Assembly (NCBI RefSeq): GCF_010725055.1
Contig: NZ_BJKB01000002.1
Coordinates: 62,001-126,000 of the forward strand
DNA: 64,000 nucleotides
DNA from: Gelidibacter japonicus
Lineage (GTDB): Bacteria > Bacteroidota > Bacteroidia > Flavobacteriales > Flavobacteriaceae
Direction: 5' to 3'
Made by a program: the position numbers and the translations under genes. A model generated the notes under the pieces. That model did not search any database, was not told the origin of the DNA, and worked only from the letters and a program-made list of their open reading frames with translations. Below, piece by piece: positions 1 to 21,734 of this stretch. Position 1 is the stretch's first letter; each line of letters starts with the position of its first letter.

Positions 1-46
1 ATTTGTAAAGTCTTTGCCCACACATCCTTCTGAAAATTCGATTTAT

Positions 47-565
47 ATGAACCATTCCAAACTCTTAGTCTCCGTCTTTTTTCTTTTGATATTTGCCTGT
101 AAAAAAACGACTCAAAAAGAGCAAAGAGAATTAATTTCTACTGATCACCAATTAGAAAAATCGATCGAAAAGAAAACGGATAGCATTTATAAAACAAGAA
201 AAGTCTACGTTCCCGTTTATTCTGACATTTACCAACGCACACGAAATGAAAGAACATTGCTCACTTCAACCCTAAGCATTCATAATACCAGCGAGACAGA
301 TACATTATATCTCAGTCGTATTGATTATTACAATACCGAAGGAAAGTTGGTTCGAAAATATATAGAATCGACCATTTTCCTAACCACGTTTGAAACTTTG
401 GAATATGTTGTAGATGAAGAGGATAAAACAGGTGGATCGGGCGCCAATTTTATAATTGAATGGTATGGAAACGAAAAGCTCAATCCCATTTTTCAAGCTG
501 TCATGATCGGTGGTTTGGGCAACAAATCATTTTCATTTACCACAGAAGGCGTGGAGGTAGAATGA
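47..565 (+). CDS. DUF3124 family lipoprotein
   Basis: Small predicted lipoprotein of 172 residues. The start at 47 is preferred over the ATG at 14 because it places a basic residue and a hydrophobic stretch directly before a lipobox-like FACK, with the acylated Cys around residue 18. The body (VYVPVYSDIYQR, then alternating strands ending in AVMIGG) matches my memory of DUF3124 proteins, which have no established function. It lies alone upstream of the FKBP gene, about 250 bases away. The start choice is inference and the family call is moderately sure. Confidence 0.7.
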   Translation: MNHSKLLVSVFFLLIFACKKTTQKEQRELISTDHQLEKSIEKKTDSIYKTRKVYVPVYSDIYQRTRNERTLLTSTLSIHNTSETDTLYLSRIDYYNTEGKLVRKYIESTIFLTTFETLEYVVDEEDKTGGSGANFIIEWYGNEKLNPIFQAVMIGGLGNKSFSFTTEGVEVE

Positions 566-819
566 GATTTGACATGCTGCACAAATTAAAAAGTGTTTAG
601 AAATTTGATATCACATCATTGTGAAATGTCCTTCTTCGCATAACATAACACAAAATCCCATAATTTTAATTATTAATGCTTTAACTAGCATATTTATATC
701 TCTATAATGGTATAAAGTAGTTAAGTTTTTCTTAAATACTCCATAAACTTCCTTAGTCGCCCTTTATTTTATTCTTTAAGCAGTAGTTTTGTACTTTATT
801 AAAAAACAAAAACACAATT
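566..819. other. Intergenic spacer upstream of FKBP gene
   Basis: AT-rich spacer without a credible reading frame. A promoter-like TAGTTTTG is seen near its right end, 28 bases before the FKBP start; nothing else was recognised. Confidence 0.5.
784..791 (+). promoter_or_regulatory. Bacteroidota -7 element of FKBP gene
   Basis: TAGTTTTG fits the TAnnTTTG -7 consensus of Bacteroidota sigma-ABfr. It lies 28 bases before the ATG at 820. A clear TTTG -33 partner is not visible, so the call rests on one box and position. Confidence 0.5.
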
Positions 820-1248
820 ATGAGTCAAGTAAAAGTAAATGACACAGTAAAAGTACATTACACGGGTAAGTTAACCAATGGTCAAGTTTTTGACAGTTCT
901 TTAGAGCGTGAGCCTTTAGAAATTACGGTCGGCGAAGGTAAACTGATTCCGGGTTTTGAAAATGCTCTCCTCAACATGCAAGTGAACGAGAAAAAAACAG
1001 TCGAAATTGGAAAAGAGGAAGCTTATGGTGACATCCAAAAAGAACTCTTTCATCAAGTTACAAAAGATCAATTGCCTCAAGATATCCAGCCAGAAGTTGG
1101 CATGGGATTAGCTTCCAAAGCGCCTGATGGCACTGAGCACCAGTTTAGAGTGGTTGAAGTTCAGGAAGATCATATCGTTGTAGATGGAAACCATCCATTA
1201 GCAGGTCAAGATTTAGTTTTCGATTTAGAATTGGTTGAAATCAAATAA
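820..1248 (+). CDS. SlyD-like FKBP-type peptidyl-prolyl cis-trans isomerase
   Basis: Cytoplasmic proline isomerase/chaperone of 142 residues, the usual SlyD-like length. It begins MSQVKVNDTVKVHYTG, continues GQVFDSS and a P-G-F-E-N-A-L segment of the FKBP fold, and ends with the conserved DGNHPLAG and a DLELVEIK strand. There is no signal peptide. An insert-in-flap chaperone segment occupies roughly residues 65-120. The 3' 240 bases recur at 7806-8042 as a truncated copy in front of mpl, and this intact copy is followed by a decayed piece of the mpl 3' end. The gene therefore marks the left edge of an apparent integration. It has its own promoter box and a strong terminator. Confidence 0.93.
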   Translation: MSQVKVNDTVKVHYTGKLTNGQVFDSSLEREPLEITVGEGKLIPGFENALLNMQVNEKKTVEIGKEEAYGDIQKELFHQVTKDQLPQDIQPEVGMGLASKAPDGTEHQFRVVEVQEDHIVVDGNHPLAGQDLVFDLELVEIK

Positions 1249-1905
1249 ATCAGATATATTTTTATTTCAAAAAGCCATTTACTTATCGTGAATGGCTTTT
1301 TTAATTTAGGTGCTATAAATTCAGATCTGCGTCTATAATTTGATGATCTAAATACATTAGACCGTCAAATTCTTCACAACTGATCCAAGCCTTATAAAAG
1401 GCAGAAAAGAGTTTTCAAATATGAGTGGGTCCTAATTCAAGAACGTCAGGGTCCGACCGGCTCGGGCGGGCAAACCCATGAAGTATGAATAAGGAATTGC
1501 CTTTTTGATCGAGGTGAGCTTCGGACCATTAAAACCCACTGGTGGAAATAAAGGCGATACTGGCGTACACTTCGACCGAATGAAGGAGTTTTTCATTCAG
1601 CACCTGATTCTAAAATAGCAACTTATAATGGTGGTACTTTCTAAATCATAGATTATGTTAAGTGTAAATACCAATGTAAACAGCGTGGAAACACCATCAG
1701 AGTTGATTAATCCAAAAAACACTATCTAAAACCCCAGAAACTCAAGAGACTACATTAAGCTTTTATTAATTTCAATTTAATCTTCACAAAAATATCGTTT
1801 AATAACTTTTACTGATGTTGGCTTAATTTAATTTCTATCCTCGGTACTCAATTAACCCTGAAAGGATAGACAATTGATATTCTTATTTTAAATTCGGTCA
1901 GTTAA
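1249..1905. other. Intergenic stretch with decayed mpl 3' remnant
   Basis: After the terminator, about 1303-1375 still matches the sequence between the FKBP remnant and the end of mpl near 8.1 kb. It includes a remnant of the mpl C-terminus: on the minus strand, VKNLTV-stop instead of VKGLMV-stop. Homology then fades by roughly 1410. From 1410 to 1905 no credible gene is seen. A GC-rich patch near 1450-1470 (CGGCTCGGGCGGGC) resembles a degenerate copy of the window's hairpin modules. Confidence 0.6.
1269..1302 (+). terminator. Rho-independent terminator after FKBP gene
   Basis: An 11-bp perfect stem (AAAAAGCCATT / AATGGCTTTTT) with an 11-base loop and a T-run, 20 bases after the stop codon. 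The same hairpin is duplicated at 8063-8096. Confidence 0.85.
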
Positions 1906-3159
1906 TCAGTCTTTTTTTTGATTGCAATAGGTCATTACAGCTCTAAAAATTTGTTCTCTTATTGGGCTGAGATTATAATACGACCGATTTAGCAATAATC
2001 CCATGTTCTGACGGTTTATTAATAGAACAATCGACAAGTCGTATTGTGGAATAACGACAATGCTTGTCCCCGTAAAACCCGTGTGTCCATAACTGCCGCT
2101 TGGTGCATTCTTCATAAAAGAATTGGTAGCGTCCATTGCCCATCCCAATCCATTTTTAAATTTATCTTGGGTTAAAAATAAACTGATGGTCTTTTCAGAT
2201 ATAAATTGAAGATTTCCTGCTTGACCATTATTTTTTAAAACATCAAGTACTTTTTGTAAGTCAGAAACAGTAGAAAAAAGCCCAGCATGCCCCGAAATAC
2301 CGTTGCTGGCGTACCAGGCATTGCCGTCATTCACTTCACCTTTTAAGGTATAATTGCGCCATCCATTCCATTGGTCAGGACTGATACTATCTATCGAAAA
2401 TCCGAGAACCGGATCAGATACCATCCTTTTCTCGTAAGGATTACCGTGGGATGTGGCGGATATTTTAATCTCAATTCCGTTTTTTAACGGATTGAACATA
2501 GTGTGCTCCATCTTAAGGGGCTTAAAAATATTTTGATACATAAATTGCTCTAAGGTCAGTTTTGATACAGTTTCAACAATCTCTCCTAACAAAATAAACC
2601 CTAAATCACTATAATGCCTGCCGCCACCTACGGGGTATTTTAAAGGTAGATTATCAATAAGCTTATAGACTTCCTGTTTGTTATTGCCAAAATAATATAG
2701 GGGGTACCATTCATAAAGCCCTGAGGTATGGCTTAACAAATGTCCAATGGTTATTTTACTTTTTTCCGGAGAATCAAAGGCCTTAATATATTTTACTACA
2801 GGATCTTCAATATTTATAAGCCCCGAATCAACCAGCAACATTATAGAGGTAGTGGTACCGATAACTTTTGTAAGTGAAGCAATATCGTAAAGATGATCAA
2901 CGGTTGTTTTTTCAGGATTGGCAAGAATTTGATGATTAAACTCCTTAATAGAGGCATAACCATAAGCCTTTTTATGAATCTCTTGATTGCCTTGCTTTAT
3001 TAAAATAACTGCTCCTGGAATTTTAGAATTATCTATTGAGGCCTGCAAAATAGTATTGATTTCGGAAATAAGTTTTTCTTTATCATTCTTGTTTTGCCCA
3101 AAGGAGGTATGGTAAAGTAAGAGCAATGAAATAAATGATAGAATTATTTTTTTAGGCAT
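1906..3159 (-). CDS. Secreted serine hydrolase (beta-lactamase/PBP-like, S12 family)
   Basis: Serine hydrolase of the beta-lactamase/D-alanyl-D-alanine peptidase superfamily, 417 residues from the ATG at 3159. That start gives MPKK plus a hydrophobic signal peptide ending near SFGQ; the longer ATG at 3192 only adds an unlikely leader. Catalytic motifs visible are S95-L-T-K98 (nucleophile and general base), Y183-S-D (the YxN-type motif) and a C-terminal YGHTGFTGT in place of KTG. The HTG form is typical of class C-like esterases and peptidases rather than true beta-lactamases. It diverges from the SusC gene and sits with it inside the duplicated FKBP/mpl junctions, so it may process the substrate taken up by SusCD. 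The substrate is unknown. Confidence 0.85.
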   Translation of the reverse strand: MPKKIILSFISLLLLYHTSFGQNKNDKEKLISEINTILQASIDNSKIPGAVILIKQGNQEIHKKAYGYASIKEFNHQILANPEKTTVDHLYDIASLTKVIGTTTSIMLLVDSGLINIEDPVVKYIKAFDSPEKSKITIGHLLSHTSGLYEWYPLYYFGNNKQEVYKLIDNLPLKYPVGGGRHYSDLGFILLGEIVETVSKLTLEQFMYQNIFKPLKMEHTMFNPLKNGIEIKISATSHGNPYEKRMVSDPVLGFSIDSISPDQWNGWRNYTLKGEVNDGNAWYASNGISGHAGLFSTVSDLQKVLDVLKNNGQAGNLQFISEKTISLFLTQDKFKNGLGWAMDATNSFMKNAPSGSYGHTGFTGTSIVVIPQYDLSIVLLINRQNMGLLLNRSYYNLSPIREQIFRAVMTYCNQKKD

Positions 3160-3416
3160 AAATAATTTATTTAGAATAGCTACAATAAACATATTTTAAT
3201 AAAAACGAAGACACATCTCTTTATCACTGGGCATTAATCAAAAATAGTACAACGTGACATTGAAAGATGCCATATTTCAAAAAATACATTTTTATGAACA
3301 TTATAAAGATAGAACCAAAATAAATTAACAAAAAACGATTTAAAATAGCAAAAACATCATATAAAACTTATTAAATTTTTATATTTTTCGACCAACTAAC
3401 CAATAATTCTATTCCA
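3160..3416. promoter_or_regulatory. Divergent promoter region hydrolase/SusC
   Basis: An AT-rich 257-base region between divergent genes that must carry both promoters. I see no perfect TAnnTTTG box. TATATTTTTCG about 40 bases before the SusC ATG is the nearest candidate on the plus strand. Confidence 0.35.
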
Positions 3417-6400
3417 ATGAAAATAACCGATGAAAGGCTCTTACATGGTAAGTGTTTTCGATTTTTGAGCAGCTTTTTATTGTTGTTCATGTTTGGCTTT
3501 GGCTCATATAGTCAATCAACTTATACATTACGAGGTAATGTAAAAGATAATTTAGGCGGACCAGCAATGGGTGTTACGGTTCAAATTAAAAACACAAATC
3601 ATGGAGCAATAACTGACTTTGCTGGCAACTACGACTTAAGTGCGACAATTGACGCAGGAAGTTACACACTTGTCTTCAGATCGTTAGGACTTTCAACTAA
3701 GGAGGTGAAAATTACTTTAGGCCAACAGACTGATGTCGTGACTGATGTCGTTATGGCTGATGATATTTTGGGATTGGATCAAGTAGTCATCACGGGTGCA
3801 GGAGCATTGACAGCCAAAAAACAACTTGGTAATACCATTTCAAGTGTTAAAGGTTCCGTAATTTCTGAATCTGGCGCTACTGATATTACTGGAGGTCTTT
3901 CAGGAAAGCTCGCTGGGATTCAGGTAACCCAAAATTCAGGTGATCCCGCTGCAGGTATCAGTGTAAGGTTAAGAAGTGCGAGCACGGTTAATGGAAGTTC
4001 AGATCCATTATATATTATTGATGGAGTAATTGTTAATAATAATTCCACAGATGTTTTGGGCACAACTAGTGTTGTTCAAAACAGGCTGTCTGATATAAGT
4101 CCACAAGATATAGATAGAATTGAGGTCATAAAAGGAGCTGCTGCCGCTGCAATATATGGCTCGCGGGCAAGTAACGGTGTCGTGCAAATTTTTACTAAAA
4201 AAGGGAAAACTGGAAAACCGGTGATCACTTTTTCTACTAGCATGAATTTCAACTCTTTAAGAAAAAAGCGTGATTTTAATCAGGAACCTTTAGACTGGGC
4301 TTCTAGTGACATTACTAATCTTACCACAGTTGCCGCAACAAGATATGACTATCAAGACATGGTGTTTCAAAATTCAATGGGAACCGATAACTACGTTTCC
4401 CTATCTGGAGGGAGTGAGAATACCGATTATTTTGCGTCATTTTCATATTTAAACAATGATGGGATTCTTAAAAGTACAAATTATGAAAGACAAGGTGGTA
4501 GAATTCGGGTCAATCAAGTCTTTAATGATTGGATATCCGCATCTTTTGGAACATATTTTTCAACAAGCAACAGTCAAGACCAACCTAATGGTGGTTATGT
4601 TGCTGGGGTGCTGCCAACGATATTATTTACAAATAATACGATAGATCCAAAGCCCGATGCAGACGGTAACTATCCAACGATGACGTTCTATCCAAATATT
4701 TTGGAATACATAAACACCTTCGATTTCAATCAAAAGAACAATAGAACTATTAGTGATTTACAGCTTAACTTAAAGCCTACAGATGGACTTAAAATCACCT
4801 ATATTCTTGGTTATGACAATTCAGAGTCAATTGGAAACTCCTATATACCTATAGGAACTACTACAATGGTAATTGGTAGTGCAAGCACTACGACTGTTAG
4901 TACAAAACAATTCAATAGTGATTTAAATGGTTCTTTTGACAAGGATATTAACGATATTTTAAAATCAACAACTACAGTAGGGTTTTCTTGGCAATCAGAT
5001 CAAACGATGTATCGTTCTATTTCAGGAAGCGGATTGGCATTAGGGGTTAAAACCACGGATGGTGCTGCTTCAATTTCTACGAATGAAAGTAGAAGTGAGA
5101 GATCGTTCTGGGGAGGCTTTTTACAGCAGACTTTTGGAATAAGCGGAAAGCTTTTTCTGACAGGAGCCATTAGACTAGATGGATCTTCGGTATTTGGCAA
5201 AGATGAAAGAAATCAATTATACCCTAAAGCAAGCATGTCATATTTAGTTTCAGAAGAAGATTTCTGGAAGGACAATCTGGCATCTTCAATCAATAGTTTT
5301 AAGGTAAGGGGTGCTTGGGGTCAAGCGGGGAACCTAACAGCCATCGGACCATTTGATAGGTTGTCAAACTATTCGGCTATTAGTATCGATGGAAGTTCCG
5401 GTTTAATTGCTCCTACTCAATTGGGTAATGCTAATCTAAAACCTGAAAGACAGACAGAGTTAGAGTTTGGTATTGATATGGGATTGTTTGACAATAGGAT
5501 AGGTTTAGAGCTAACCTATTACAAACAAGACATTGAGGACCTTCTTTTGGCAAGAACACTGTCACCTTCTACAGGTTTTGGTTCAAGGGTTGAAAATATA
5601 GGGATCATGACAAATAGAGGTTTTGAAGCAATGATTACGGCAACTCCTATTCAAACCAATAATTTTAGTTGGACAATTACAGGGACTTATTCTACAAACA
5701 AAAATGAAGTAAATAATATTGAAGGAGAGCAATTTGGTATTGGGAACTTTGGTTTTTCAGTTGCTAAGAACGGACAACCTTTAGGCGTCTTCTATCAAGG
5801 TTTTTATGCAAGAAATCCAGATGGCAGCCTACTATTAACACCAGGAGGTTTGCCTCAGAGAGAGAAAGGCTCACTTGATGCAAACGGCAATCCAGTTCCA
5901 GAGAGAGATGGTACAGGTCAACCTAGTGGAGCAAATTTAAGTAAGGTCATTGGAGATCCAAATCCTGACTTTACAGCCTCTTTGACTAATGAACTAAAAT
6001 ATAAAAACTTTTCTTTTAGAATGCAGTTTGATGCTGTTCAAGGAGGTGACGTTTTAAGTTGGGATACACGTATGTTCTATCGATTTGGAGGAGGTCCGGA
6101 AACAGCTAAGGAATTAAGAGGAGAGAGTGTAAGGGGAACTGGAGCGGCTAAGTTTGGAATTGCAGAATCTTATATTGAAGATGGATCTTATATAAAACTT
6201 CGAGAATTGTCCACCTCCTATTTATTAAAAGACCCTTTTAAGGGGGTGAATAGTATTAAATTCACCATATCTGGACGTAATTTGTTTTCAATCGACAATT
6301 TCTCAGGTTACGATCCTGAAGTAAATATGGATGGGCAAAGCAATGGTTCTAGAGGAGGTGTTATGGGACTGGTTCCTATTCCTAGGGTAATCAAGCTTGG

Positions 6401-6419
6401 CCTCATTGCTTCATTTTAA
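3417..6419 (+). CDS. SusC/RagA-family TonB-dependent outer-membrane transporter
   Basis: TonB-dependent receptor of 1000 residues, normal for the SusC/RagA family. After a signal peptide ending near GSYSQ comes a CarboxypepD_reg-like domain (about residues 38-115; TLRGNVKDNLGGPAMGVTV). A plug domain follows (about 120-260) with the SusC signature PLYIIDGV and the run RIEVIKGAAAAAIYGSRASNGV. The rest is the beta barrel, ending in the aromatic IPRVIKLGLIASF. It imports nutrients too large for porins, with the SusD partner 26 bases downstream as lid. No glycoside hydrolase, sulfatase, sigma/anti-sigma or HTCS gene accompanies it, so the substrate cannot be assigned. Both genes lie inside the putative integrated segment. 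Confidence 0.95.
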   Translation: MKITDERLLHGKCFRFLSSFLLLFMFGFGSYSQSTYTLRGNVKDNLGGPAMGVTVQIKNTNHGAITDFAGNYDLSATIDAGSYTLVFRSLGLSTKEVKITLGQQTDVVTDVVMADDILGLDQVVITGAGALTAKKQLGNTISSVKGSVISESGATDITGGLSGKLAGIQVTQNSGDPAAGISVRLRSASTVNGSSDPLYIIDGVIVNNNSTDVLGTTSVVQNRLSDISPQDIDRIEVIKGAAAAAIYGSRASNGVVQIFTKKGKTGKPVITFSTSMNFNSLRKKRDFNQEPLDWASSDITNLTTVAATRYDYQDMVFQNSMGTDNYVSLSGGSENTDYFASFSYLNNDGILKSTNYERQGGRIRVNQVFNDWISASFGTYFSTSNSQDQPNGGYVAGVLPTILFTNNTIDPKPDADGNYPTMTFYPNILEYINTFDFNQKNNRTISDLQLNLKPTDGLKITYILGYDNSESIGNSYIPIGTTTMVIGSASTTTVSTKQFNSDLNGSFDKDINDILKSTTTVGFSWQSDQTMYRSISGSGLALGVKTTDGAASISTNESRSERSFWGGFLQQTFGISGKLFLTGAIRLDGSSVFGKDERNQLYPKASMSYLVSEEDFWKDNLASSINSFKVRGAWGQAGNLTAIGPFDRLSNYSAISIDGSSGLIAPTQLGNANLKPERQTELEFGIDMGLFDNRIGLELTYYKQDIEDLLLARTLSPSTGFGSRVENIGIMTNRGFEAMITATPIQTNNFSWTITGTYSTNKNEVNNIEGEQFGIGNFGFSVAKNGQPLGVFYQGFYARNPDGSLLLTPGGLPQREKGSLDANGNPVPERDGTGQPSGANLSKVIGDPNPDFTASLTNELKYKNFSFRMQFDAVQGGDVLSWDTRMFYRFGGGPETAKELRGESVRGTGAAKFGIAESYIEDGSYIKLRELSTSYLLKDPFKGVNSIKFTISGRNLFSIDNFSGYDPEVNMDGQSNGSRGGVMGLVPIPRVIKLGLIASF

Positions 6420-6445
6420 GTATCATAATCAAAAAACAAAAAAAG

Positions 6446-7792
6446 ATGAAACATATAAAGTTATATACAATCATAGGTGTTTTGCTTATCGGTAGTGGTC
6501 TATTCACTGCTTGCGACACCGATTTTGAAAACCCGAACAATCCAACAGAAGATGTTGTTTTAGGGACTAAAGGAGGTCTTTTTGCTTTAGCTACTGGTAT
6601 CAGGCAATACTATTCAGTATTTGCTTTGAGACAAATAATTGAAGCTCCAGGCATTACAACAAGAGAGTTGGGAGTAACCAATACATTTTTAAATATTAAT
6701 GAATTGGCCAGAGGAGGCGCTGAATTACCTAGTGAAAGTGGCGGTATCACCAATCCTTGGATTGTTTTTCTACGAGCCAAAGGAATGTCTGAATCACTAA
6801 TTGAAGGCGCAAATACAGTAGAACTTTCAAGTGGAACAAAAAGCGGATTATTGGCTTATGGCAATTTATTTAAAGCAATGTCTTTAGGCTCCCTAATTGA
6901 AATGTTTGAGCAAGTCCCGATCAACAACTCCGCTGATGGTGCAGCTCCATTTAGTGATAGAGCAACCGTGTTGACCACTTGCATTGCATTGTTAAAGGAA
7001 GCACGGGATGTACTGGCAACAACACCAATGTCGGATGAGTTTAAGTCATCGGTTCTATGGTCTGAATTTAATATGGAAAAAACAATCAATGCTTATCTAT
7101 CGCGATATGAGTTGATGGCAGGCAATTATGATGGAGCAATAGAGGCAGCTAATGCCGTATTAAATAATAGTGATGCTACAATTTCAATGTGGGTTTATGA
7201 CGCTAACAACCAAAATCCTATTTGGAATAGAACGGTCAATTCGACCGATTTAAAACCGCAAACAAATTTTGGGTTATTAGGAGCTTATGTGCCCGAGGCA
7301 GGTGACGAGCGTGTTGGTTTTTATCTAGGCGCTGATCTTGGCTTTGCCAATGCAGACGCTGGAGGACAAGCGATTAGTGAGATGCTTGGTTTTTTTGCTA
7401 CCAATACATCGTCTATTCCAATGTACCTACCTGGTGAAATGCTATTAATTAAAGCAGAAGCCTATGCAAGAAAAGACATATTAGACAAAGCAGTTGAGCA
7501 ATTGAATTTAGTTAGACAAAAAAATAATGACCCACTTGGTGTCAATGCTAACCTTCCTGCTTGGGCAGGTGATGAAACCAACCAGAATGCTATTTTAGAA
7601 GAGATATATAAAAACAGAAGTATCGAGCTTTTTTTAACAGGGTTGAGGTTTGAGGACAGTAAAAGGTTCCATCCTAATTTTGTTGTTCCTATGGAATCTA
7701 ATACAACAAATGAAAGGAACAGAAATTATTACCCTTATCCGTCAATAGAACGGGAGAATAATCCAAATACGCCTGCAGACCCTTCGATTTGA
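6446..7792 (+). CDS. SusD/RagB-family surface lipoprotein
   Basis: Substrate-binding lipoprotein partner of the SusC transporter just upstream, 448 residues. The N-terminus has a hydrophobic signal with lipobox LFTAC (Cys at about residue 23), followed by DTDFENPNNPTED, the usual start of mature RagB/SusD proteins. The C-terminal region contains the helix ELFLTGLRFEDSKRF, characteristic of SusD-like C-terminal domains, and a TPR-like segment around LLIKAEAYARKDILDKAVEQLNLVRQ. It is predicted to act as the extracellular lid over SusC. The stop codon lies only about 14 bases before homology to the FKBP gene resumes, so this gene abuts the right junction of the duplicated segment. Confidence 0.93.
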   Translation: MKHIKLYTIIGVLLIGSGLFTACDTDFENPNNPTEDVVLGTKGGLFALATGIRQYYSVFALRQIIEAPGITTRELGVTNTFLNINELARGGAELPSESGGITNPWIVFLRAKGMSESLIEGANTVELSSGTKSGLLAYGNLFKAMSLGSLIEMFEQVPINNSADGAAPFSDRATVLTTCIALLKEARDVLATTPMSDEFKSSVLWSEFNMEKTINAYLSRYELMAGNYDGAIEAANAVLNNSDATISMWVYDANNQNPIWNRTVNSTDLKPQTNFGLLGAYVPEAGDERVGFYLGADLGFANADAGGQAISEMLGFFATNTSSIPMYLPGEMLLIKAEAYARKDILDKAVEQLNLVRQKNNDPLGVNANLPAWAGDETNQNAILEEIYKNRSIELFLTGLRFEDSKRFHPNFVVPMESNTTNERNRNYYPYPSIERENNPNTPADPSI

Positions 7793-7805
7793 AATTCTAG
7801 AATGA

Positions 7806-8042
7806 AATGACGAACCTTATGATGACATCCAAAAAGAACTCTTTCATCAAGTTACAAAAGATCAATTGCCACAAGATATTCAGCCAGAAGTTGGCATGGG
7901 ATTAGCTTCCAAAGCGCCTGATGGCACTGAGCACCAGTTTAGAGTGGTTGAAGTTCAGGAAGATCATATCGTCGTAGGCGAAAACCATCCATTGGCAGGT
8001 CAAGATTTAGTTTTCGATTTAGAATTGGTTGAAATCAAATAA
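7806..8042 (+). pseudogene. Truncated 3' fragment of SlyD-like FKBP gene
   Basis: A second copy of the last 78 codons of the FKBP gene at 820-1248, without start codon or N-terminal half. An in-frame TGA lies just upstream at 7803. Between 1022-1248 and 7816-8042 I count eight base differences in 227 positions. Several change residues: AYGD becomes PYDD, and the conserved DGNHPLAG becomes GENHPLAG, consistent with loss of constraint or a foreign donor. It is followed by the same terminator and then by mpl, which is presumably the ancestral neighbour. Not expected to make a functional isomerase. Confidence 0.85.
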
Positions 8043-8062
8043 ATCAGACATATTTTTATTTC

Positions 8063-8096
8063 AAAAAGCCATTTACTTATCGTGAATGGCTTTTTT
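8063..8096 (+). terminator. Duplicated rho-independent terminator
   Basis: Identical to the hairpin at 1269-1302 (AAAAAGCCATT / AATGGCTTTTT). It now lies between the FKBP remnant and the 3' end of mpl, so it can terminate SusD read-through and, being symmetric, possibly mpl. Confidence 0.75.
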
Positions 8097-8151
8097 AATT
8101 TAGGTGCTATAAATTCAGATCTGCGTCTATAAATCTGATGCTCTAAATACA

Positions 8152-9507
8152 TTAAACCATCAAACCTTTTACTTCCTCAAAATCCAATCCACCATAAGTT
8201 CCCGAACTCATCAACAACAAGACCTTGTTGTCGAAATTTTGTGAAAACAGAAAATTCTTAAAATCGTCAGGATTGGTATAAATAATCAAGTCGTCTCTTT
8301 CAAAAGCATTGGCAATTTGCGCTTGCGTCACTTCCTTCAGTTTTTTAATTTCAACCGCATGCGGCGAATAAAACACAACGGCTACATCGGCTGCATCCAA
8401 GGTGCCTTTATATTCTTTTAAAAAATTGGCATTCAAGCTGCTGTAGGTATGCAATTCTAAACAAGCCACGACAGATCTATCGGGAAACTGTTCTTTTACA
8501 GCATTGGTGGTTGCCTTAACTTTACTTGGAGAATGTGCAAAATCCTTAAATGCAATACTTTTTTCACCCTCCCCTATTTTTTCAAGACGTTTGCTGGCTC
8601 CTTTAAAACTGGCGATGGCCTCATAAAAGTCGTCTTCATCCACCCCCATATGTTGGCAAATCCATTTGGCACCAGCCAGGTTGTTTAAGTTGTGTTTTCC
8701 AAAAACCTCAATTGGCAAAGGCCCTTCAGGAGTATCCAAAAGGGTTTCTCCATTGACCACGCTGTATTCTGGTGTGTGATAAGGTAATTTTCTGATGGTG
8801 TTTTCTGAAGCCTCCACCACTCTTTTGACTTCGTCATCTTCTTCATTATAAGTAATGCTTCCACCCTTAACAATGCTATCCACAAAGATTTTAAACTGCT
8901 CGACATATCCTTCATAGGTCGGAAACACATTGATATGATCCCAAGCAATCCCGCTCAATAACGCAATATTGGGTTGGTACAAATGGAATTTCGGTCGTCT
9001 GTCAATCGGCGAACTCAGATATTCATCACCTTCCAAAACGATAAAATCATTGTCATCCGTCAATTTTACCATCACATCAAAGCCTTCCAATTGCGCGCCC
9101 ACCATATAATCAACATCCCTATCGTGATAATCCATCACATGGAGAATCATTGATGTAATAGTCGTTTTTCCATGACTGCCGCCAATCACGACTCGGGTTT
9201 TATGTTTCGACTGCTCGTACAAAAACTCTGGGTAGCTATAAATTTTCAAGCCCAATTCCTGTGCTCTCAGCAGTTCAGGATTATCAGCTTTGGCATGCAT
9301 TCCCAAAACCACGGAATCAATAGAACTATTTATTTTTTCAGGAAACCAGCCAAAGCTTTCTGGAAGCAAACCTTGCTGATCCAATCTTGTTCTAGAAGGC
9401 TCATAAATTTCATCATCACTTCCTGTTACCTGATATCCTCTATTGTGTAACGCAATGGCGAGATTGTGCATGGCACTGCCACCAATGGCTATAAAATGTA
9501 CGTTCAT
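8152..9507 (-). CDS. mpl: UDP-N-acetylmuramate:L-alanyl-gamma-D-glutamyl-meso-diaminopimelate ligase
   Basis: Cytoplasmic Mur ligase of peptidoglycan recycling. It joins the recovered tripeptide L-Ala-gamma-D-Glu-mDAP to UDP-MurNAc using ATP. The 451 residues match Mpl length. Visible are the N-terminal IAIGGSAMHNLAIAL dinucleotide-like fold, D31/E33, the P-loop GGSHGKTT (residues 109-116) and, in the C-terminal domain, DFAHSPSKVKATT, which is diagnostic of Mpl rather than MurC. It ends beside the FKBP remnant, and its last few codons are also duplicated in decayed form near 1357. Convergent with SusD. A TATCTTTG box lies 20 bases upstream of the ATG. Confidence 0.93.
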   Translation of the reverse strand: MNVHFIAIGGSAMHNLAIALHNRGYQVTGSDDEIYEPSRTRLDQQGLLPESFGWFPEKINSSIDSVVLGMHAKADNPELLRAQELGLKIYSYPEFLYEQSKHKTRVVIGGSHGKTTITSMILHVMDYHDRDVDYMVGAQLEGFDVMVKLTDDNDFIVLEGDEYLSSPIDRRPKFHLYQPNIALLSGIAWDHINVFPTYEGYVEQFKIFVDSIVKGGSITYNEEDDEVKRVVEASENTIRKLPYHTPEYSVVNGETLLDTPEGPLPIEVFGKHNLNNLAGAKWICQHMGVDEDDFYEAIASFKGASKRLEKIGEGEKSIAFKDFAHSPSKVKATTNAVKEQFPDRSVVACLELHTYSSLNANFLKEYKGTLDAADVAVVFYSPHAVEIKKLKEVTQAQIANAFERDDLIIYTNPDDFKNFLFSQNFDNKVLLLMSSGTYGGLDFEEVKGLMV

Positions 9508-9526
9508 AGTTTAATTTTGAAGAGTT

Positions 9527-9534
9527 CAAAGATA
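9527..9534 (-). promoter_or_regulatory. -7 promoter element of mpl
   Basis: TATCTTTG on the minus strand, an exact TAnnTTTG match ending about 20 bases before the mpl start. Confidence 0.6.
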
Positions 9535-9575
9535 GTTTTTTTGATGCGAATGGCGAATGATTTTATTTATGAAGA

Positions 9576-9640
9576 TGGAAAGTAATTACACAGAGACACG
9601 CTGAGTTAGGCGGAGTGTCACAGAGAGTTTAATAAGAATA
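9576..9640. repeat. CACAGAG-type intergenic repeat
   Basis: ACACAGAGACACGCTGAG followed by GTCACAGAGAG. It belongs to a phrase family also seen near 19050-19100, 23965-24060 and 34335-34350. Function is unknown. Confidence 0.55.
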
Positions 9641-9665
9641 TTCGTGTATTCGTGGCAATTTAAGA

Positions 9666-10619
9666 TTAAAGTTTACGAATGGCCGTTTTTTCCGACTGAA
9701 AAACTTCGTTCTGGGGCAATTCAGTAATGGCGAGTTCGATATACTTCAACGCATCAGCCTTATTGTTTTTGAGTTTGTAAATCTGCGCCAAACGGTAATT
9801 TGCCCATGCTTTTGACACCTCATCCTTCACTGAGTAATTCGTGATATAATTGTGTAAGTACTTTTCACCTTTGACCAATTGAATATTATATTCCGCAGCC
9901 ATCTTCCCTATATGGTAATTTAGATTATTACTACCATGCTTCTTCTGAGCGGCTTCCAAATTGGCAATGGCTTTATCTGGTTCTTTTTGGGCTTCATATA
10001 AATTGGTAAGTTTCTCGTAACAAACTAAGGATCCACCTTCCATCACGGCCAACTTAAAATATTTTTCAGCGGTTTTTAAATCGTTATCGTATTGATAGAT
10101 ATAGCCTTTTGCCAGATAGCCATCTACCTTAGAAAGATTCTGCAATTCATCAGCATATTTAAGGGATTTGGTCATGCTACCTCCAACAATCCCTGGCAAT
10201 TGCATATACAATTCTACCAATGCCCAACGGGCTTCAATATGTTTTGGATCAAGATCTGCGGCCGTAATAAATGCCTGCTTTACATCACCGATAATCGATA
10301 GCGCCTTCATCTTATTAACCGACAAGGCTTTCATGCCCAAAGCACCACCGTATTTGTAATGATAATTAGCTGTTTTAGGGCTCGCTTTTACCAATTTTTT
10401 ATAGTTCTCAATAGCTCCATCCCATTTCTTCTGATGCCCATATGCATCTCCCAAAAGCTCAATACCTCTAAGGTTATTAGGGTTATCCTTCACGTAATTG
10501 TTCATCAACACTTCCGCTTTAGAAAATTGTTGGTCAGCGAAAAGTTGTTCGGTTTTTTGAATATCTGTCTGACTTATTGCCGATACCGAAAAAAATAAAA
10601 TGTAAATAATGAATCTCAT
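9666..10619 (-). CDS. Secreted tetratricopeptide-repeat protein
   Basis: Predicted periplasmic TPR protein of 317 residues from the ATG at 10619. This start begins MRFIIYILFFSVSAISQ, a clean signal peptide; the ATG at 10655 adds 12 charged residues in front. Several TPR-like helical hairpins follow (for example NLRGIELLGDAYGHQKKWDGAIENYKKL, here described rather than fully aligned, and a C-terminal RLAQIYKLKNNKADALKYIELA). No enzymatic motif is present. It is transcribed divergently from the giant alpha-2-macroglobulin gene. It probably acts as a scaffold, but no specific role can be assigned. Confidence 0.75.
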   Translation of the reverse strand: MRFIIYILFFSVSAISQTDIQKTEQLFADQQFSKAEVLMNNYVKDNPNNLRGIELLGDAYGHQKKWDGAIENYKKLVKASPKTANYHYKYGGALGMKALSVNKMKALSIIGDVKQAFITAADLDPKHIEARWALVELYMQLPGIVGGSMTKSLKYADELQNLSKVDGYLAKGYIYQYDNDLKTAEKYFKLAVMEGGSLVCYEKLTNLYEAQKEPDKAIANLEAAQKKHGSNNLNYHIGKMAAEYNIQLVKGEKYLHNYITNYSVKDEVSKAWANYRLAQIYKLKNNKADALKYIELAITELPQNEVFQSEKTAIRKL

Positions 10620-11058
10620 CCTGAAGTTTCTGAATTCAAAAATAAACATTCTCATGCATTGTTATCTAATCTTTTACAACTCATTTATATCAAAACCCTT
10701 GGAATTCCAAATACATATTTTAATTGCATAAGAAGCCAAAACAGGCCAATATAGATTTATCATATTCTTGCAAACATATATTCTCAGAATCATAAGGGTC
10801 AAGTCTTGATTCCCGCATTCAAAAAATTTACGGACAGGAAGGCTTGATTCTAAAAACGAAGCGGTCTTGACTCCTTTATCACATATTATTAATTGTTATG
10901 GTATTGTTTTTGCTTAATGATAAAAAATAATAAAGTTAACTTCAGAATTCGTTAACTTCACTCAATCAAATGTAGGCGTGACGTATTTCCTCTTTTTTAA
11001 AAGATCCAATGGCATTAGCTTACGTACAAATCCATGTTAAGGATTCAAATCTATTCAA
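10620..11058. other. Divergent spacer TPR / alpha-2-macroglobulin
   Basis: About 440 AT-rich bases that must contain both divergent promoters. Near 10855-10880 is the phrase GAAGCGGTCTTGACTCCTT, a copy of an intergenic phrase also found near 17980-17998 and 41876-41898. No small gene is seen. Confidence 0.5.
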
Positions 11059-14000
11059 ATGATGAAACAGTTTATAACTCTATTTATGGTCATATTTTTT
11101 GCAAATTTTGCACAATCCCAATCCAATAATTATGAAAAATTATGGAAAGAAATTGAAAAATATGAAAATGAAGGTTTGACCAAATCTGCCTTACAGGTTA
11201 CCGAACAAATTGCCAAATTGGCTGTTGCCGAAAAAAATACAGTTCAACATATCAAAAGTTTATTGTATAAAAGTAAGTACGCACTAATTTTAGAGGAAGA
11301 CGCACAACTTAAAATTATCAACGATTTTAAATCACAAAGTGCCTCCAGCGATATTCCAACCAAAAATATTCTTGAAAATATGCTCGCCAATTTATACTGG
11401 CAGTATTTTCAGCAAAACCGCTATCAATTCTATAACCGAACCCATACCGAAAGCAAAGTTGATGCTGAAGATTTCAGAACCTGGGACCTTCAAACCTTGT
11501 TTGAAGAAATTGATGCCCATTATCAAAATTCGCTTAAAAACGGATTGATTCTTCAGGAAACGCTGTTGGTTAATTATAACGATTTATTACACAAAGCGAA
11601 TGGATCAAAGCTATTCAGACCTACTCTCTTCGATTTTTTGAATCACAATGCCTTAGCTTTTTACCAAACCGATGAAACCAGCATCACTCAACCTGCCTAT
11701 AAATTCCTGATTGATAATCCTGAGTTCCTATCGGATGCCAAGACTTTTTCAGGGTTGGACATCACCCACCGAGATTCCACATCCTTACAATTTAAAGCTT
11801 TAAAGATTTACAAAAATTTAATCGCTTTTCACCTTAAAGACAAAGAACCTTACGCTTTGGCGGATGTCAATATCCAACGACTTCAGTTCGTTAAAAACAA
11901 TGCCACATTTAGCGATAAGGATGCTGTTTATTTGAAGAGTCTCCAACAAGCTTCAGCCGCGTATAAAGACCATGAAGTCTCTGCCCTTTACGATTTCGAA
12001 ATAGCATCATTATACCATCAACAAGGTCAAGGTTTTGATGCTAAAACCAATGTGGATGCACGTTGGAAATTTAAAGATGCCATTGCGATTTGTGATGCGG
12101 TCACGCAAGATTTCCCAAGAAGTAAGGGCGCAGAAAAATGTGCTGTTTTAAAGAATCTTATTTTGAAACCCACTTTGCAACTGACTGCAGAAAACAATAT
12201 CCCCATTCAAAGCAACAGTTTGATATTGGTACGCTATTCAAATTTGAACCATTTAAAGTTTAAAGCATATCGGCTTTCACCATCCCAGTTAGACAGTTTC
12301 AATAAAACCTACCGTCAGGACGAACGATTCGCATTTATCAAAAAACTAAGAGTCTCGGAAGAATGGGACAGCCCACTCAATAATGAAAATGACTTTCAAG
12401 TACATACTACTGAGGTGGTCCTTCCTAAACTGAATAACGGACAGTATCTTATTGTGGCCACACCTGATTTCTCAAACGATGAGTTATTCGCCCATAAAAC
12501 TATTCAAGTGACCAATATGGCGTTGGTGACAAAATCAGATACAAATAGAGAATTGTTCCAATTGATCAATAGAAACAATGGTCAACCTCTTGGAGGTGCA
12601 AACGTGTCGGTTAGATACCAAATCAATTATAATAACGAGTACAAAACGCAAGATTTCCTAACGGATAAAAACGGCGAATTCAGCATGGAGAATTCCAAGA
12701 ACCGCTATTATAATATGAATATCACAGCGGTCAACAATTCAGACACTGCATACTTCAAAGATTATTATAGCAGAAGTTATTATAACGATGACGATGGTCA
12801 AGAGCCGATCAGTTATACCCCATTTTTATTCACAGATCGAAGTATTTACAGACCCGGTCAAGTCGTCTATTTTAAAGGGATAGCCACTAAAACAGAAAAC
12901 AAAAAAACCACGGTTTATGCCCACCAATCGGTAAAAGTGACCCTTAAAAATGTCAATGGCGAAGTGGTCAAGGAATTAGAACTCAAAACCAACGAATTTG
13001 GTTCGGTTTCTGGAGAATTCATCCTGCCAAATAATGGATTAACCGGCCAGTTTAGTCTTGAAATCTACGCTGGGAATTATGGTTATGCCAACATTTCGGT
13101 TGAAGAATACAAACGTCCAAAATTTGAAACTAAATTGCTTCCGATAACCGAAACCTTCAAAATCAATGATTCTGTAACCGTAAAAGGAAATGCTTTAGCC
13201 TACGCTGGCAGTACGATAACGGACGCAAAAGTAGTCTATCGCGTGCACAGAAAAGTCCAATATCCACGATGGTATTACTGGTACAGACCGTGGTTTAACA
13301 GTGAACCTCAGGAAATTGCCCATGGCGAAAGCATGACCGATAAAGACGGTAATTTTGAAATAAAATTCAAAGCTATTCCTGATGAAAGTGTAGACAAAAA
13401 CAGTCTCCCGGTATTTAATTATGAAATCACTGCTGATGTCACCGATCTCAATGGCGAAACTCGCAGCGCCACCACTATTGTGAATGTTGGCTACCATGCA
13501 CTTTTAGCAAACATAAGTATAAAAGGACAGTTGGATAAATCGAAAATAGAACACCAACTTTCTATAAGCACAAAAAACTTGAACGGCGAGTTTGTTGTTG
13601 CTCAAGGCACTGTCAAAATTTATAAACTCCAATCTCCCAAAGAAGTTTTAAGACCACGCCCGTGGCCTGCACCAGATTATCACGCCTTATCCCGCGAAGA
13701 ATTTAAAAAAATATTTCCGCATGAAGTGTATCAAGATGAGCATAATCCCGAAACATGGGAGAAAGGCAAGATGGTATTTGAGACCAATTTTGACACTTCG
13801 AAATCGAAGGAAATCAAATTGGAAAGTCTTAAAAAATGGGAGTCCGGCAATTATATCATCATTTTAGAAAGTCAAGATCGATTTGGACAATTAGTGACGG
13901 ATCAAGCGCGGACTTTTGTATTCAGCCCAGATGACAAAATGCTTCCGGATAATCAGCTGTTTAGTGTTAGCACAGATCAGTCCACATATAAAACAGGTCA

Positions 14001-20432: not shown

Positions 20433-21734
20433 ATGCGATTAAAGATGCTCAAAAATACAGTATTCTCGATAATAACGGCGATTGTTTTGATATTGATTTC
20501 TTGTGGAAATGGAACTAAGAGTACAAAGTATGACGTACAAAGTACAAAGATGGTCGACGGAGATCAAAAAACATACAAAAGTAAACTGCCTACTGAAGAC
20601 TTGCTACTGCCGACTATAAAAGTGGGCGCCAATCAAACGGAAAAGTACTTGAGACTATTAGAAACCAAACGCGTTGGCGTGGTTGGGAATCAGTCGAGTG
20701 TTATTTTTAAGGACAAAAATCGAAAAAATGACCTCGGAGATTATACTCACCTTGTTGATTCCCTACTTAGTCTAAGCATAAACGTAAAAAAAGTATTCTC
20801 CCCAGAACATGGATTTAGAGGTACCGCCGATGCTGGCGAGAAAATTCAGGATGGTCTTGATCCAAAGACAGGGCTGCCCATCATTTCACTTTATGGCGAC
20901 AATAAAAAACCAAAACCAGAACAGCTCAAAGGCTTGGATATTTTAGTATTTGACATTCAAGATGTGGGCGTCCGATTTTATACCTACATCTCAACTTTGC
21001 ATTATGTCATGGAGGCTTGTGCGGAGGCCAATATTCCAATTATTATTTTTGACAGGCCCAACCCAAATGGGCATTATATAGATGGTCCTATTTTAGAAAA
21101 AGCAAATACGAGTTTTGTGGGAATGCATCCTATCCCAATTGCTCATGGGATGACCATTGGTGAATACGCCAAAATGATCAATGGTGAAAAATGGTTGAAA
21201 AATGAGGTTCAATGTCAATTGACCGTTATTCCGATAACAAATTACACACACCAATCGCCCTATAGTTTACCTATTAAACCATCGCCAAACTTACCGAACG
21301 ATCAAGCCATTGCCTTATACCCAAGCCTGTGCTTTTTTGAAGGCACCAACGTGAGTGTTGGACGTGGTACAGATAAGCAATTCCAAGTATTTGGAAGTCC
21401 CGATTTGGATAAAAAGCACTTTACTTTTAGTTTCACACCGCAACCTAATGAAGGTGCCAAAACACCACCTCAACAAGGAAAAACATGTTATGGCAAAAAT
21501 TTAACGGAAGTCGATGTAAAACCAGGTATAAACTTACATTATGTAATTGAAGCCTATACACATACTGCGGATAAAACCAAATTCTTTAATTCGTTTTTTG
21601 TAAAATTGGCCGGCACTACAAAACTTCAGGAACAAATAGAGAAAGGTCTTTCTGAAAAGGAAATTAAAGCCACTTGGGCAAAAGGACTTGAAGATTTTAA
21701 AAAAACTCGCAGTAAATATGTGCTCTATTCATAA
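20433..21734 (+). CDS. DUF1343 / NamZ-like exo-beta-N-acetylmuramidase lipoprotein
   Basis: Predicted lipoprotein of the DUF1343 family, whose studied member NamZ (GH171) removes MurNAc from the non-reducing ends of peptidoglycan fragments. Lipobox LISC puts the lipid Cys near residue 24; a start at 20445 (MLKNTVF) is equally plausible. The conserved block FSPEHGFRGTADAGE is visible around residues 127-141, followed by VFDIQDVGVRFYTYISTLHY and PNPNGHYIDGP. The linker between lipobox and domain (codons at 20513-20625) is a low-complexity sequence. It shares the 18-mer AAACTGCCTACTGAAGAC with intergenic DNA at 34522-34539, so it looks like a repeat captured in frame. It may act in cell-wall recycling with Mpl. 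Confidence 0.88.
   Translation: MRLKMLKNTVFSIITAIVLILISCGNGTKSTKYDVQSTKMVDGDQKTYKSKLPTEDLLLPTIKVGANQTEKYLRLLETKRVGVVGNQSSVIFKDKNRKNDLGDYTHLVDSLLSLSINVKKVFSPEHGFRGTADAGEKIQDGLDPKTGLPIISLYGDNKKPKPEQLKGLDILVFDIQDVGVRFYTYISTLHYVMEACAEANIPIIIFDRPNPNGHYIDGPILEKANTSFVGMHPIPIAHGMTIGEYAKMINGEKWLKNEVQCQLTVIPITNYTHQSPYSLPIKPSPNLPNDQAIALYPSLCFFEGTNVSVGRGTDKQFQVFGSPDLDKKHFTFSFTPQPNEGAKTPPQQGKTCYGKNLTEVDVKPGINLHYVIEAYTHTADKTKFFNSFFVKLAGTTKLQEQIEKGLSEKEIKATWAKGLEDFKKTRSKYVLYS

Follow-up and report, generated by a model that had tools for sequence, protein, structure and literature searches.

The DNA analysed here, called the window below, is a stretch of 64,000 nucleotides from the marine bacterium Gelidibacter japonicus (C2:62001-126000 of the genome G000). 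Near its start a serine hydrolase gene (HYD) and a SusC/SusD uptake pair, together called the island, are bracketed by two direct copies of the border between an FKBP-type peptidyl-prolyl isomerase gene (FKBP) and an Mpl-type Mur ligase gene (mpl). Comparing this segment with eight other Gelidibacter genomes (G001-G008, of which G005 is G. sediminis DSM 28135 and G007 an uncultured Gelidibacter sp.), we conclude that it probably arose when two versions of a single Gelidibacter locus were fused head to tail. The window reads cl4-DUF3124-FKBP-mpl' joined to 'cl4-HYD-SusC-SusD-'FKBP-mpl, the primes marking truncated ends. The first part would correspond to an island-minus version A, cl4-DUF3124-FKBP-mpl, as in G004 and G006, and the second to an island-plus version B, cl4-HYD-SusC-SusD-FKBP-mpl, as in G005 and G007. 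We favour this fusion because the island lies between cl4 and FKBP-mpl in G005 and G007, and because a tail of cl4 accompanies it in the window. The scar is mechanistically ordinary, of a known kind and well preserved. Since both parental gene orders are known from sequenced relatives, its left joint can be placed within 8 bp, and the segment is a readable fossil of a nutrient-uptake gene pair entering a chromosome without an adjacent integrase.

The features on which the argument turns are the following, in window positions:

820..1248, plus strand: whole FKBP-type peptidyl-prolyl isomerase gene (Pfam PF00254; 97% amino acid identity to G006).
1010..1361, no strand assigned: left repeat copy, made of the FKBP 3' end, the terminator, the spacer and the last few bp of mpl (alignment; mostly recipient-type at the diagnostic sites described below).
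1362..1369, no strand assigned: left joint, an 8-bp microhomology CC(A/G)TCAAA common to the 3' ends of mpl and cl4 (sequence comparison).
1370..1433, plus strand: first half of a decayed cl4 3' segment, with two in-frame stops (blastn, 83% to the cl4 of G007 and G005, 75% to the genome's own whole cl4).
About 1434..1551, no strand assigned: 118-bp dispersed repeat within the cl4 remnant (matches in the own genome; alignment of 10 copies).
About 1551/1552..1618, plus strand: second half of the decayed cl4 3' segment, ending at the stop (sequence match and reading of the frame).
7793..7804, no strand assigned: right joint, from the sequence after SusD to FKBP codon 64, placed inexactly (about 12 bp past the SusD stop).
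7804..8156, plus strand: right repeat copy, an FKBP 3' fragment without a start, the terminator and the spacer (alignment and reading frame).
8152..9507, minus strand: whole Mpl-type Mur ligase gene (Pfam and NCBIfam models).

Compared without gaps, positions 1010-1309 and 7804-8103 form a direct repeat of two copies with 96% identity over 300 nt and a spacing of 6794, which extends as 1337-1369 versus 8132-8164 at 88% identity. In a MAFFT alignment of 1010-1369 with 7804-8164, 17 of the 361 columns differ (about 95% identity). An earlier reading of the DNA (the sequence-only reading) had described such a repeat, in direct orientation and about 6.79 kb apart, with a whole FKBP on the left, and on the right a mere FKBP tail beside a whole mpl; all of this agrees with what we find. 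The first base of the right copy is FKBP nucleotide 191, the open frame covers residues 66-142, the FKBP start is absent and a Pfam search of the fragment gave no match, which rules out that this copy is a piece of a distinct functional gene, the outcome that would have spoken against the earlier account. No FKBP matches besides these two were found in the own genome. The 54 edge columns among the 361 hold eight of the 17 differences (Fisher p 0.001, the edges having been picked after viewing the data), and neither the longest gap between differences (p 0.12) nor their densest cluster (p 0.08) is unusual.

The left joint is where our account departs from the sequence-only reading, which had seen there a decayed tail of mpl. 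At most 13 bp of mpl are present (1357-1369), and from 1362-1369 onwards the sequence is the decayed 3' end of cl4, matched by 1362-1433 and again by about 1551-1618. At the joint, mpl has ACCATCAAACC and the cl4 of G007 has TCCATCAAATT, with 8 bp in common; at least 8 bp are shared at 0.05% of 78,400 position pairs from the mpl and cl4 3' ends. The second half of the remnant is 79-80% identical to the cl4 of G007 and G005 and 77.5% to the genome's own whole cl4, located shortly before the window starts, at C2:59715-61799. The cl4 product resembles dipeptidyl peptidases (NCBIfam Dpp5, 98 bits, far under the cut-off) and we take it to belong to peptidase family S9. A scan of the intergenic stretches of at least 60 bp at the locus in eight genomes (G000-G007, with G008 left aside) met cl4 and FKBP tails in a gap where they do not belong in the window only. 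Its remaining hits were, in G002, a DUF3124 absent from the gene list and a cl3 tail, both where they would be expected; in G001, a start-codon extension of cl3; and in G007, a match of 22 bp in reverse orientation. A contig assembled chimerically from two strains would be a very improbable source of such a structure: the repeat measures about 355 bp and the genome (4.67 Mb) is a draft of 61 contigs with an estimated contamination of 3.35%, but the two stops in the cl4 tail, the truncated FKBP and the inserted repeat are decay rather than products of misjoining, and no FKBP matches beyond these two copies were found in the genome.

The 118-bp repeat within the remnant has 15 matches in the own genome, itself included and some of them short, and in most of the 10 aligned copies its ends lie near AATCAAGAAC and CCCACTGGTGGGAATAAA. 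On visual inspection, the FKBP-mpl spacer of G006 contains a fragment similar to it. Its single-strand fold has a z of -1.9, with 12 of 200 shuffles equally good.

A whole FKBP adjoins mpl in all eight other Gelidibacter genomes, and a DNA search for FKBP gave no further long match in these genomes; relatives lacking the island thus have one simple FKBP-mpl junction, as the sequence-only reading had predicted. G004 and G006 have the order cl4-DUF3124-FKBP-mpl and G001 has DUF3124-cl3-cl4-FKBP-mpl, while in G005 and G007 the trio stands upstream of FKBP and downstream of cl4 (DUF3124-cl3-cl4-HYD-SusC-SusD-FKBP-mpl). G003 has one extra gene between DUF3124 and FKBP, G002 has one gene between cl4 and FKBP, and the contig of G008 starts 649 bp before FKBP, the upstream part being outside view. 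The island proteins of G005 and G007 are close to those of the window (92-93% identity for SusC, 92% for SusD); the best SusC match by E-value in the other six genomes is 48% identical in G002 and 32-33% in the rest. The DUF3124 gene of the window belongs to the island-minus version:

14..565, plus strand: DUF3124 gene, in the order cl4-DUF3124-FKBP (Pfam PF11322; equal order in G004 and G006).

As a separate observation, DUF3124 precedes cl3-cl4 in G001, G005 and G007 and follows cl4 in G000, G003, G004 and G006, a permutation that is the outcome expected of a tandem duplication followed by losses.

The cargo between the repeats consists of three genes:

1906..3192, minus strand: PF00144 serine hydrolase (HYD), PBP4B-like, with a putative signal peptide judged by eye (Pfam; orthologues adjoin SusC/SusD in G005 and G007).
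3417..6419, plus strand: SusC/RagA outer-membrane transporter (TIGR04056, 567 bits).
6446..7792, plus strand: SusD/RagB lipoprotein (PF07980).

The top curated match of HYD is NCBIfam PBP4B, at 217 bits under a cut-off of 385, and its best solved structure is the putative beta-lactamase 6kjh, over residues 40-234; the SusD profile matches 3jq1 (E 0.0004). At E<=1e-30, SusD has matches in 23 of 299 genomes of the family, the own genome counted. No open reading frame (ORF) of at least 80 amino acids other than HYD, SusC and SusD lies between the repeats, and therefore no integrase or recombinase ORF of that size, as would be expected of a site-specific integrative element; a mobile element with its own integrase was rejected on this ground. 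The sequence-only reading's inventory, a hydrolase with a SusC/SusD pair and no integrase, is confirmed by Pfam within this ORF limit. The composition is uninformative (GC of 0.35-0.39 in HYD, SusC and SusD versus 0.36-0.41 in five neighbouring genes). At the right joint the 5' part of the donor FKBP is gone.

In the mechanism that we propose, the mpl 3' end of version A would have been joined through the 8-bp microhomology to the cl4 3' end of version B; the joint itself is seen in the window, and the order of the steps is reconstructed. HYD-SusC-SusD would have been gained without loss of DUF3124 or FKBP, at the price of a duplicated FKBP-mpl border. The second FKBP would then have lost its 5' part, and the cl4 tail would have decayed and received the 118-bp repeat, changes that can be read directly in the window. 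The likeliest incoming molecule would be a linear piece of island-plus DNA, whose left end joined through microhomology and whose right end joined within FKBP or beside it. Such an event resembles homology-facilitated illegitimate recombination (HFIR) and double illegitimate recombination, for which the available parts of two reports (PMC3240628, PMC4437187) describe foreign segments joined via 3-10 bp of microhomology on one side with homology nearby. Most HFIR joints in the E. coli study carry 3-10 bp of microhomology (PMC3240628, in the part available), and the 8 bp at 1362-1369 fall in this range. HFIR generally deletes recipient DNA, according to the portions available of both reports (PMC3240628, PMC4437187), whereas recipient DNA is duplicated in the window, as in the single-crossover class of the E. 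coli study (PMC3240628).

The origin of the two repeat copies was followed at diagnostic columns, in which G001, G005 and G007 share one base and G004, G006 and G008 another. Twenty were found, one of them outside the aligned copies, leaving 19 usable sites, which are confined to FKBP and the terminator. At 15 of these both copies have the recipient (G004)-type base, and at 2 both have the donor-type base; one site is split, and at one the left copy is recipient-type and the right neither. These counts bear on Campbell-type integration, in which a circle cl4'-HYD-SusC-SusD-FKBP-mpl', closed at the cl4/mpl microhomology, would have undergone one crossover with the resident FKBP-mpl. We regard this as a possible route of which we are doubtful, and as a way of reaching the fusion rather than its opposite. 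Direct repeats of the target flank the insert, as in Campbell integration, and the mpl'/'cl4 joint is what circularising a segment of G005/G007 order is expected to give. There is also a precedent in E. coli, where 14 sequenced insertions with duplications of 109-950 bp are ascribed, in the available part of the study, to a single crossover with a circular molecule (PMC3240628). Unlike in the textbook case, however, both repeats are mostly recipient-type, the right one is truncated directly behind the cargo, and no circle was seen, the ORFs of at least 80 amino acids between the repeats being the three cargo genes. The sites themselves speak against a circle from a G005/G007-type donor: at each position its base would be expected in at least one of the copies, and both copies are recipient-type at 15 of 19. 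A donor-type tract appears in neither copy, so that the Campbell route would need a circle with a recipient-type FKBP-mpl, or erasure by gene conversion, which is possible between the repeat copies. The single-crossover integration scar of the sequence-only reading came near the mechanism, and direct repeats do flank the insert; its left joint carries cl4, its circle is disfavoured if of G005/G007 type, and a circle is one of several routes.

A circle is indeed not needed, since an equal product results from a linear fragment joined illegitimately, from template switching, or from tandem duplication with losses. We consider the last of these unlikely. An unequal tandem duplication of an island-plus locus in the own lineage, after which the first copy lost HYD-SusC-SusD and the second lost the FKBP 5' part together with DUF3124, would account for the head-to-tail joint and for the truncation from the SusD stop to FKBP codon 64 as a single deletion. 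It requires three events, though, and the cl4 remnant agrees with the own cl4 at only 103 of 140 positions (74%), against about 95% between the FKBP-mpl copies. A linear piece of island-plus DNA is favoured for two reasons: the copies are mostly recipient-type, and a tandem duplication leaves this 74% identity unexplained.

Several observations weigh against the two-version fusion. The species of the window is represented by one strain, and clear homology is absent at the right joint. Private changes occupy 11 of 76 otherwise invariant columns in the cl4 tail, against 7 of 166 in the right FKBP tail and 2 of 166 in the left; the cl4 tail has thus decayed more than the right FKBP tail (p 0.008), and the two tails may differ in age, or FKBP may have been refreshed by gene conversion. 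Gene conversion of the FKBP copies, or a cl4 tail that had decayed before its arrival, would each explain the unequal decay. The donor type of the cl4 tail is also weakly resolved: its best tree position is with G001, G005 and G007 (support 55/81), while the data do not reject a sister position to the own cl4 (approximately unbiased test, p-AU 0.069) or a grouping of the tail with G000, G004 and G006 together (p-AU 0.29). A separate tree of the cl4 tail contained no starred branch.

The island alleles have probably been exchanged inside the genus, most simply through their flanks, as suggested by identities at 4-fold sites computed gene by gene and by a second comparison in 250-bp windows. Between G005 and G007, the 4-fold identity is 42-44% in HYD, SusC and SusD versus 44-94% in seven other genes (cl3 72%, cl4 83%, FKBP 94%, mpl 77%, the A2M gene 85%, DUF3124 50%, the TPR gene 44%). 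The 250-bp windows show steps at both island edges, from 0.90-0.98 in cl4 to 0.58-0.85 in the island and 0.98 in FKBP. Between two close species the SusC/SusD cassette thus diverges far beyond the surrounding cl4, FKBP and mpl, which points to exchange through the flanks. Between G000 and G007 the departure is in the other direction, with 51-56% in the island versus 27-51% in nine other genes (27-43% in cl3, cl4, DUF3124, FKBP, mpl, TPR and A2M). This excess is only moderate, because two upstream genes, a SusC relative and its neighbour, reach 46 and 51%, like part of the island, which counts against our account. In a tree of 34 rows the Gelidibacter SusC/SusD pairs form one clade (100/100), nested among pairs of other genera. 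We infer exchange inside the genus because the island identities depart from those of the flanking genes, with steps at the island edges, and because the Gelidibacter pairs are one clade. Of the homology-driven acquisition advanced by the sequence-only reading, horizontal movement is supported; FKBP-mpl is not an arbitrary homology arm, as the island of G005 and G007 adjoins FKBP-mpl and the cl4 tail came along.

The gene neighbourhoods of SusC/SusD relatives in other genera give the pair a testable substrate, murein fragments, and it is on account of these neighbourhoods that we read the cargo as most likely a murein-fragment uptake module, in which SusC and SusD would import fragments of muropeptide or N-acetylmuramic acid (MurNAc) type and HYD would trim them. 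We collected 45 loci with SusD relatives; without two Gelidibacter loci and three duplicates, 40 from other genera remain. Murein-related neighbours were counted by tblastn (E<=1e-20) in the fetched stretch of each locus, and cluster names come from Pfam on one member each, MurQ being named from a Gelidibacter gene that passes TIGR00274 and is 72% identical. NamZ is present in 20 of the 40 loci (in 15 of 20 of a hand-picked subset) and at least one of NamZ, MurQ and AnmK in 28, so that the nested Gelidibacter pair is related to pairs in MurNAc-catabolism clusters; 6 of the 12 loci with none of the three are stretches shorter than 8 kb. Several genera have nearby a 971-amino-acid GH3 enzyme with a C-terminal PF00144 domain, to which HYD aligns at 24%. 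We take NamZ to be the family GH171 of the murein polysaccharide utilization locus (PUL) of the Urechidicola symbiont. The idea of a murein PUL with SusC/SusD is not new, since that case, in the part of the report available, is in print (PMC10199937), and the clusters of the relatives are like it in combining SusC/SusD with MurQ, a DeoR regulator, a sodium co-transporter, an epimerase and GH3 (PMC10199937). Our literature search found no paper joining NamZ, MurNAc and SusD, and, on Gelidibacter SusD and horizontal transfer, nothing beyond a species description.

In contrast to such murein PULs, the SusC/SusD pair of Gelidibacter is separate from those genes and has as neighbours a free-standing PF00144 hydrolase, FKBP and the Mpl-type ligase; murein-catabolism genes are not in the same cluster. 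Two further points speak against a tight link to murein: NamZ, MurQ and AnmK do not occur within 10 kb of SusD in G005 or G007, and all three are present in 9 of 9 Gelidibacter genomes whether or not the island is there, so that no correlation with the island is obtainable inside the genus. More speculatively, HYD-SusC-SusD could be a murein-scavenging cassette, a replaceable allele at the cl4/FKBP site swapped via flanking homology; the window would then record a mis-aligned exchange that added the cassette beside the resident version, later gene conversion having kept the FKBP 3' ends alike.

Other murein genes were noted in these genomes. In the window a NamZ exo-muramidase gene lies at 20433-21731, about 11 kb beyond the Mpl-type ligase and about 12.6 kb beyond SusD, and in G001, G004, G005, G007 and G008 the contig that carries FKBP also has NamZ matches 12-13 kb away from it. 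Outside the window, G000:C4:42629-46065 carries three NamZ matches in a row, the genome total being 6, and G000:C3:3000-22900 is a MurNAc cluster with a DeoR-like gene, SusC, SusD-like_2, NamZ, a symporter, MurQ, GH3, GH18, a second NamZ and GH9. Its GH3 enzyme has 563 amino acids and no PF00144 domain, and its SusC and SusD differ from the island pair.

A known RNA element was dropped as a candidate for positions 1-12000 of the window, where an Rfam search at the gathering threshold gave 0 matches. Finally, the mpl protein lies under the cut-offs of both relevant models (murC, 230 of 335 bits; mpl, 181 of 389 bits), and because another gene of the genome exceeds the murC cut-off, the name mpl was assigned by elimination and is to be taken as putative.

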